DNA from: Flavobacteriaceae bacterium 3519-10
Lineage (GTDB): Bacteria > Bacteroidota > Bacteroidia > Flavobacteriales > Weeksellaceae
Length of the DNA stretch: 64,000 bases
Assembly (NCBI GenBank): GCA_000023725.1
Contig: CP001673.1
Location: forward strand, 382,342-446,341
Direction of reading: 5' to 3'
Under the pieces are notes generated by a model that worked only from the letters and a program-made list of their open reading frames with translations, was not told the DNA's origin and did no database searches. Position numbers and translations under genes: made by a program. Positions 49,289-50,806 of this stretch are shown piece after piece (position 1 is the stretch's first letter; every line of letters begins with the position of its first letter).

Positions 49289-50806
<1,518 letters not shown>

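Follow-up and report, generated by a model that had tools for sequence, protein, structure and literature searches.

A UCUCA anti-Shine-Dalgarno sequence in 16S rRNA and its matching element before rpsU in Flavobacteriaceae bacterium 3519-10 and its relatives

The 3′ tail of the 16S rRNA of Flavobacteriaceae bacterium 3519-10 (genome G000) very probably represents a real and fixed alternative anti-Shine-Dalgarno (anti-SD) sequence, UCUCA, that acts in this genome as a private lock-and-key system with rpsU, the gene for ribosomal protein bS21. An element matching the tail is placed shortly before the rpsU start codon, no other gene start in the genome is preceded by such a match, and the two sequences covary in relatives. 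By analogy with published work on F. johnsoniae, the tail would be hidden in most ribosomes and rpsU would be autoregulated. For its clade the finding in G000 is known and was expected from the literature. The added value lies in the relatives, with a third matched pair and losses of the rpsU partner, neither of which was foreseen in the initial annotation of this DNA.

RESULTS AND DISCUSSION

Both 16S rRNA genes end in UCUCA

The window, i.e., the whole stretch of 64,000 nucleotides that was analyzed, contains a full-length 16S rRNA gene followed by two tRNA genes and by the 23S and 5S rRNA genes, and thus a complete rrn operon (Table 1). The 3′ end of the 16S rRNA reads GGAACA-UCUCA-UUUUAGAG, or GGAACA-TCTCA-TTTTAGAG in DNA letters, where TCTCA sits within GGCTGGAACATCTCATTTTAGAG. 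The initial annotation had located this core correctly and had deduced changes at positions 1535 and 1539 relative to E. coli; these are C to U and C to A, respectively. The 14-nt tail that it quoted has the right core and is too short, as the pairing segment extends beyond it into the final stretch given above.

G000 is a single contig of 2,768,102 bp (2.77 Mb) with two 16S genes. The second copy (G000:C1:2236587-2238103, minus strand) does not end in CACCTCC; it is identical to the first over the 2,091 nt compared, including the tail and approximately 380 nt past it, and UCUCA occupies positions 1535 to 1539 in 2/2 copies. A sequencing or assembly error at the 16S end might produce an aberrant tail, and the initial annotation had argued against a poor assembly end because the rest of the gene appeared normal. 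The full-length Rfam match and the same tail in the second copy agree with that argument, and UCUCA is present both in most family genomes whose tail was read (see below) and in named isolates of Chryseobacterium, Kaistella, Elizabethkingia, Riemerella, and others. The identical copies and the family-wide occurrence refute an error, the probability of which we regard as negligible. Elsewhere in the window, a Flavo-1 small RNA was recognized at positions 4593-4667 on the minus strand (46.2 bits versus a cutoff of 42).

Table 1 Features of the rrn operon in the window and rpsU leader motifs that pair with the 16S tail
Feature	Position in window	Strand	Remarks
16S rRNA gene	49289..50805	+	Rfam RF00177, 1525 bits, model positions 1-1533, full-length bacterial; tail may extend a few nt more
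Anti-Shine-Dalgarno core UCUCA in place of CCUCC	50798..50802	+	E. coli positions 1535-1539
Tail segment ACAUCUCAUUUU	50795..50806	+	Full complement of the 12-nt AAAATGAGATGT preceding rpsU; duplex -14.6 kcal/mol
rrn-operon spacer tRNA	51027..51100	+	Rfam
rrn-operon spacer tRNA	51192..51265	+	Rfam
23S rRNA, same operon as 16S	51596..54365	+	2676 bits, full length
5S rRNA, same operon as 16S	54513..54620	+	Rfam
rpsU leader series AGGAGGUG / UGAGAUG / AGAGAUG			Partners of cores CCUCC / UCUCA / UCUCU

A 12-nucleotide complement of the tail precedes rpsU

The rpsU gene, the sole bS21 gene found in G000, lies outside the window, 112 kb before it (G000:C1:270193-270390, plus strand). Its product has a tyrosine at position 54 (Y54), and bS18 is present in the genome along with bS21. 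The rpsU leader reads ...ACCAAAATGAGATGTAAACT-ATG, i.e., AAAAUGAGAUGU-AAACU-AUG at the RNA level. Instead of a canonical AGGAGG, the absence of which the initial annotation had implied, the gene is preceded by the 12-nt element AAAATGAGATGT (270176-270187), which ends 5 nt before the ATG and is the exact reverse complement of ACATCTCATTTT, the 16S tail from A1532 onward. Replacing the core of the tail in silico weakened the duplex with the rpsU leader, calculated using RNAduplex, from -14.6 kcal/mol to -5.5 kcal/mol with CCUCC and to -10.6 kcal/mol with UCUCU. A TGAGATG-type element had been suggested for both rpsU and rpsR. It was found before rpsU, with 12-nt pairing at 5-nt spacing, and rpsR has no SD (-0.3 kcal/mol), as reported for Flavobacteriales.

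The exact 12-mer occurs at five sites in the whole of G000. Three of them are rpsU and, on the opposite strand, the two 16S tails; the remaining two have no ATG downstream. At one mismatch, 16 further sites appear, which brings the total at no more than one mismatch to 21, including the 2 16S tails. Among the 19 non-16S sites genome-wide, rpsU alone precedes a gene start. Three candidates for further SD genes (L010, L016, and L021), each with a mismatch, have a start codon 3 to 12 nt on and more than 100 open codons; they were rejected, as they lie in frames already open upstream for 506, 505, and 324 codons, respectively, and are therefore located inside genes.

Just upstream of the rpsU element is TACTTTTGCA, which resembles a Bacteroidota promoter and may be one. 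Its position directly before the element suggests that the rpsU leader may be short.

No general use of SD pairing among the G000 ORFs sampled

We assessed SD usage in 389 ORFs of at least 100 aa, with the first ATG taken as the start, from 464 kb of G000 (the window and 20 further stretches). The mean duplex energy with the tail at positions -24 to -1 was -1.38 kcal/mol, weaker than that of a control region at -60 to -37 (-2.05 kcal/mol) and that of shuffled sequences (-1.65 kcal/mol). The strongest upstream duplex among these ORFs reached -9.2 kcal/mol versus -14.6 kcal/mol for rpsU, and duplexes of -8 kcal/mol or below numbered 4 upstream, 3 in the control region, and 4 in the shuffles.

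The initial annotation had proposed counting TGAGA-type motifs against random expectation, and this count revealed no enrichment among the 389 ORFs. TGAGAT was observed once 3 to 12 nt before starts (0.78 expected), GAGATG was not observed (0.43 in shuffles), ATGAGA was observed once (0.89), and TGAGA was observed twice (2.29). In the same interval, GGAGG preceded none of the 389 starts, and AGGAG preceded one. The TGAGAT that had been pointed out at window positions 62625-62630 is indeed present, and with the ATG at 62632 it is too close for an SD role, as had been remarked. These near-random counts, together with a mean upstream duplex weaker than in the control region and the shuffles, argue against UCUCA being a general anti-SD served by UGAGA-type SDs at many genes. 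Nothing of weight speaks for general use, the nearest to it being GAGAT before 4 of the 389 ORFs versus 2.5 expected. General use is refuted for the sampled ORFs, weak use being possible at genes whose starts were miscalled by the first-ATG rule, and as an account of the tail we consider it very improbable. By energy among the 389 ORFs, and by the 12-mer scan at no more than one mismatch across the whole genome, no gene other than rpsU has a strong SD.

The prfB gene was found in 29 of the 30 genomes searched (not in G006), and rpsR was read in 18 of the 30, G000 included. In G000, prfB is one uninterrupted open frame, with no frameshift site. The sequence AGGAGGTATCTTTGA is present at the prfB start in 3/6 CCUCC genomes searched (G321, G363, and G411); as the frameshift is also absent from the other three, its absence from G000 constitutes weak support.

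Tail states across relatives

The 20-mer GCGGCTGGAACA-NNNNN-TTT matched in 230 of 320 family genomes, and tails were read among the matches listed. In the 113 family genomes with a tail read (G000 included, partly among the matches listed), 100 tails have UCUCA, 13 have UCUCU, and none has CCUCC. Besides G000, these tails comprise 57 from the listed 20-mer matches, 47 from a further reading, and 8 taken from 16S loci. The in-family UCUCU tails, among the matches listed, belong to groups g3, g24, g25, and g29. UCUCU was also found in 37 of the 68 f16 genomes of the order sample (n = 395), 36 of them in genus g53 (approximately 0.6 Mb) and one in g114 (approximately 0.3 Mb); it belongs to a real 16S gene in all 16 genomes whose surroundings were read. 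Judging by their genome size and their order, these f16 genomes are probably Blattabacterium or its kin.

Beyond the family and f16, candidate UCUCC or ACUCC tails came up in eight genomes, and two of these were verified as 16S: UCUCC in G393 and ACUCC in both copies of G322. The candidates in G357, G452, G480, G603, G444, and G620 proved not to be 16S, as did a match in G302 with the core GCACT. In G006, the tail reads GGAATATCTCT (L176), with C1533 also changed to U; this genome has no rpsU SD. Two metagenome bins labeled Acinetobacter and Oscillospiraceae (L113 and L135) hold Weeksellaceae-type 16S tails, and the contigs are probably misbinned.

Among the named records compared, the 16S of G000 is closest to those of Chryseobacterium sp. 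HSC-36S06 (L102; 98.9%), Chryseobacterium sp. VAUSW3 (98.2%), and Kaistella pullorum (97.5%), and it falls within a Chryseobacterium-related clade in the 16S tree. This position, both 16S copies, and the matching 12-nt rpsU SD place the genome in the UCUCA subset of organisms to which it had been assigned at the outset. That this subset has already been described, as was then claimed, is stated in passages of PMC8710568 and PMC9976891.

The rpsU SD follows the tail in three matched states

We obtained the rpsU leader from 109 genomes, along with the leaders of two second copies, and both parts of the pair were known in 74; the 74-genome counts omit 35 genomes with rpsU read and no 16S tail read, their 16S being unassembled, unmatched, or outside the search. 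Among UCUCA genomes, 37 of 44 have a matching rpsU SD, with a match of 10 to 13 nt (the tail was read for only 8 nt from the core on in 30 of the 44) and a spacing of 5 nt in 37/37. A matching SD (AAAAGAGAUGU) is present in 7 of 19 UCUCU genomes (G004, G005, G007, G008, G297, G299, and G305), with AAAAGAGATGT-type leaders and matches of 13 to 14 nt. Four g3 genomes outside these counts (G009 to G012) carry an AGAGATG element at rpsU as well. For CCUCC, the SD is matched in 7/9 genomes by the best bS21 gene, or in 8/9 when the second bS21 gene of G391 is counted; intact genomes have AGGAGGU-type leaders, and G452 has GGGGGUG, with one G-U pair. No rpsU SD was detected in the UCUCC genome (0/1) or the ACUCC genome (0/1).

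In genomes with an intact pair, the SD varies in step with both core positions of the tail: AGGAGG goes with CCUCC, TGAGATG with UCUCA, and AGAGATG with UCUCU. Core swaps in silico weakened the duplex in 10/10 genomes shown, e.g., in G007 from -15.5 kcal/mol to -11.3 kcal/mol (UCUCA) and -6.6 kcal/mol (CCUCC). The matched UCUCU genomes bring to three the complementary pairs found between position 1539 and the SD: C-G, A-U, and U-A. This natural covariation is of the same kind as that in print, plus one further state.

A few genomes depart from the common arrangement. In G314 (L195), rpsU has AAATGAGATGT approximately 11 nt from the ATG rather than 5. Two bS21 genes were found in each of G291 (L234) and G391 (L302/L342). 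One of those in G391 has an SD and the other does not, the best bS21 gene being counted as having lost it; the second copy in G291 is divergent, with its start read as TTG.

Some lineages with an altered tail have no rpsU partner

A matching SD is missing from 7 of the 44 UCUCA genomes, namely G317, G318, and G319 (Weeksella/Vaginella type), G204, G212, and G213 (g11), and G301. In the 16S tree, G319 adjoins Weeksella, and the g11 genomes are near Faecalibacter. It is also missing from 12 of the 19 UCUCU genomes, comprising eight of f16, three of g24, and G006; the rpsU leaders of g24 are partly decayed (-0.9 to -7.0 kcal/mol). The tree suggests that a missing SD probably reflects loss rather than an element never acquired. 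With altered tails lacking an rpsU SD in both classes, rpsU pairing cannot alone keep the tail sequence. The genomes with UCUCC and ACUCC (n = 2) both lack an rpsU SD, which fits the idea that partner loss frees the tail. Speaking against rapid drift, the tails of the Weeksella-type and f16 genomes are steady even with no partner present.

In f16 genus g53, both genomes with rpsR read (2/2) have rpsR leaders that pair with their own tails at -6.6 kcal/mol (L381, in G447) and -6.5 kcal/mol (L382, in G345), a stronger pairing than at any other annotated-type start (18 read). In these genomes rpsU has no SD, and the pairing of the rpsR leader makes another partner gene possible there.

PMC9976891 states that every organism with UCUCA shows the complementary sequence before rpsU; the Weeksella-type genomes without the SD depart from this rule, insofar as it was meant to include them. 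The same source describes the Flavobacteriales without a strong rpsU SD as mostly Blattabacteriaceae, a description that the f16 genomes lacking the SD fit.

These losses bear on the alternative that the tail drifted neutrally with SD pairing unused, the rpsU element being a coincidence or a promoter or protein-binding site. Lineages with an altered tail and no rpsU partner speak for this alternative, as do the lack of SD enrichment in the sampled ORFs and the location of the element just downstream of TACTTTTGCA, a motif that we presume to be promoter-like. Set against them are the perfect 12-nt match at a fixed spacing and the fact that the element, where present, tracks both core positions of the tail. 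Drift is also favored by the motif-enrichment search of PMC6107228, which recovered no variant SD to match a variant anti-SD. On this evidence we judge neutral drift improbable. The lock-and-key reading has evidence against it too, in the altered tails without a partner in several lineages and in residue 54 of bS21, which is Tyr in G000 and His in 26 of the 37 UCUCA genomes with an intact SD; the literature, as far as it was available, gives Tyr54 as uniquely conserved in Bacteroidia and as stacking on A1534.

Order of the changes

A 16S tree of 52 rows was built with the tail left out and with C. koreense dropped because of its short 16S. The family was held at 99/99, and the deep branch order within it was not fixed. 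Five tail changes in total are required on this tree. Approximately unbiased (AU) tests did not reject a single clade for UCUCA or for in-family UCUCU (p 0.158, 0.189, and 0.141), and one origin of UCUCA, one origin of in-family UCUCU, and a union of the family with f16 were likewise each not rejected (p 0.14-0.22). A tree of RF2 and bS18 (30 genomes) gave 6 changes; it was not relied on because of a very long G580 branch and the presence of four CCUCC genomes among the family rows. As single-origin trees were not rejected, the data support three states at position 1539, with three matching partners, rather than any number of switches between UCUCU and UCUCA.

Relation to known systems and proposed mechanism

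Covariation of UCUCA with rpsU has been described in Chryseobacteria and related Flavobacteriales in passages of PMC8710568 and PMC9976891, both citing Jha 2021. As portrayed there, that system is like G000 in its UCUCA core, its rpsU complement, its clade, the finding of no other SD gene, and the lack of a prfB frameshift, which according to PMC8710568 is absent from all Weeksellaceae analyzed. G000 itself shows no difference from that portrayal; its relatives add UCUCU with a matching rpsU SD and UCUCA or UCUCU genomes without the SD. We found no report of UCUCU with a matching rpsU in listings of the anti-SD literature (including that on Ornithobacterium, Blattabacterium, and Weeksella), of work on rpsU in Weeksellaceae or its covariation, and of bS21/Flavobacteriales papers since 2023. 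The UCUCU tail itself may appear in published supplementary tables.

For F. johnsoniae, PMC9976891 reports that bS21, bS18, and bS6 together conceal the tail, that bS21-less ribosomes favor rpsU, and that rpsU is autoregulated; it uses a duplex energy of -13 kcal/mol as a mark. G000 is like F. johnsoniae in having an extended SD before rpsU, and its -14.6 kcal/mol passes that mark, the cutoff being roughly comparable as another program was used. Unlike F. johnsoniae, which has CCUCC, G000 has the UCUCA core, and the function of its pair is a proposed one. With UCUCA instead of CCUCC, the G000 helix is A-U rich and weaker (-14.6 kcal/mol versus -18.8 to -22.1 kcal/mol in CCUCC genomes with an intact SD).

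Extended to G000, the published model would place the tail of most ribosomes on the 30S platform, kept there by bS21, bS18, and bS6, so that ordinary mRNAs would start without SD pairing. A 30S subunit without bS21 would have a free tail, which could pair with the element 5 nt before the rpsU start. This pairing would raise bS21 synthesis until bS21 hides the tail again, closing the loop.

Other authors have taken the change as a loss of anti-SD function. In the text available, PMC6107228 (2018) lists Chryseobacterium, Elizabethkingia, Riemerella, and Blattabacterium as lacking CCUCCU, and PMC10783764 (2024) lists Weeksella virosa, Chryseobacterium glaciei, and Riemerella anatipestifer as lacking CCUCC. 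The rpsU match found here indicates instead that function is kept for one gene in 37/44 UCUCA genomes.

A wider reading, possible though on balance somewhat doubtful, is that this order retains the anti-SD chiefly as a private code for a single gene, and that the code evolves as three matched pairs (C-G, U-A, and A-U at position 1539). After loss of the rpsU SD, the tail could wander (UCUCC and ACUCC) or stay as a relic (Weeksella/Vaginella type and the 0.6-Mb endosymbiont-like genomes). If this is true, natural genomes already supply a series that runs from matched pairs to tails without a partner. The anti-SD belongs to the most conserved stretches of rRNA, and a tail that has moved with one gene following it would tell that the tail still has a job, and which one. 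The third state and the losses let one ask which partner moves first, and with them swaps of parts could test whether a single mRNA holds an rRNA sequence in place.

bS21 relatives on viral contigs

Five bS21 relatives were found on viral contigs, four of them without the SD element. Among the 21 listed ORFs of at least 50 aa that follow an SD element before an ATG on viral contigs (at least 120 such stretches), none was bS21-like. The fifth relative, on an IMG/VR contig (L413), is a Chryseobacterium-type rpsU with the SD element, and it is followed by two ORFs similar to the pair downstream of rpsU in G000, which we presume to be recombinase-like and HPF-like. With such host-like neighbors, L413 was rejected as a viral bS21 gene and taken for host DNA.
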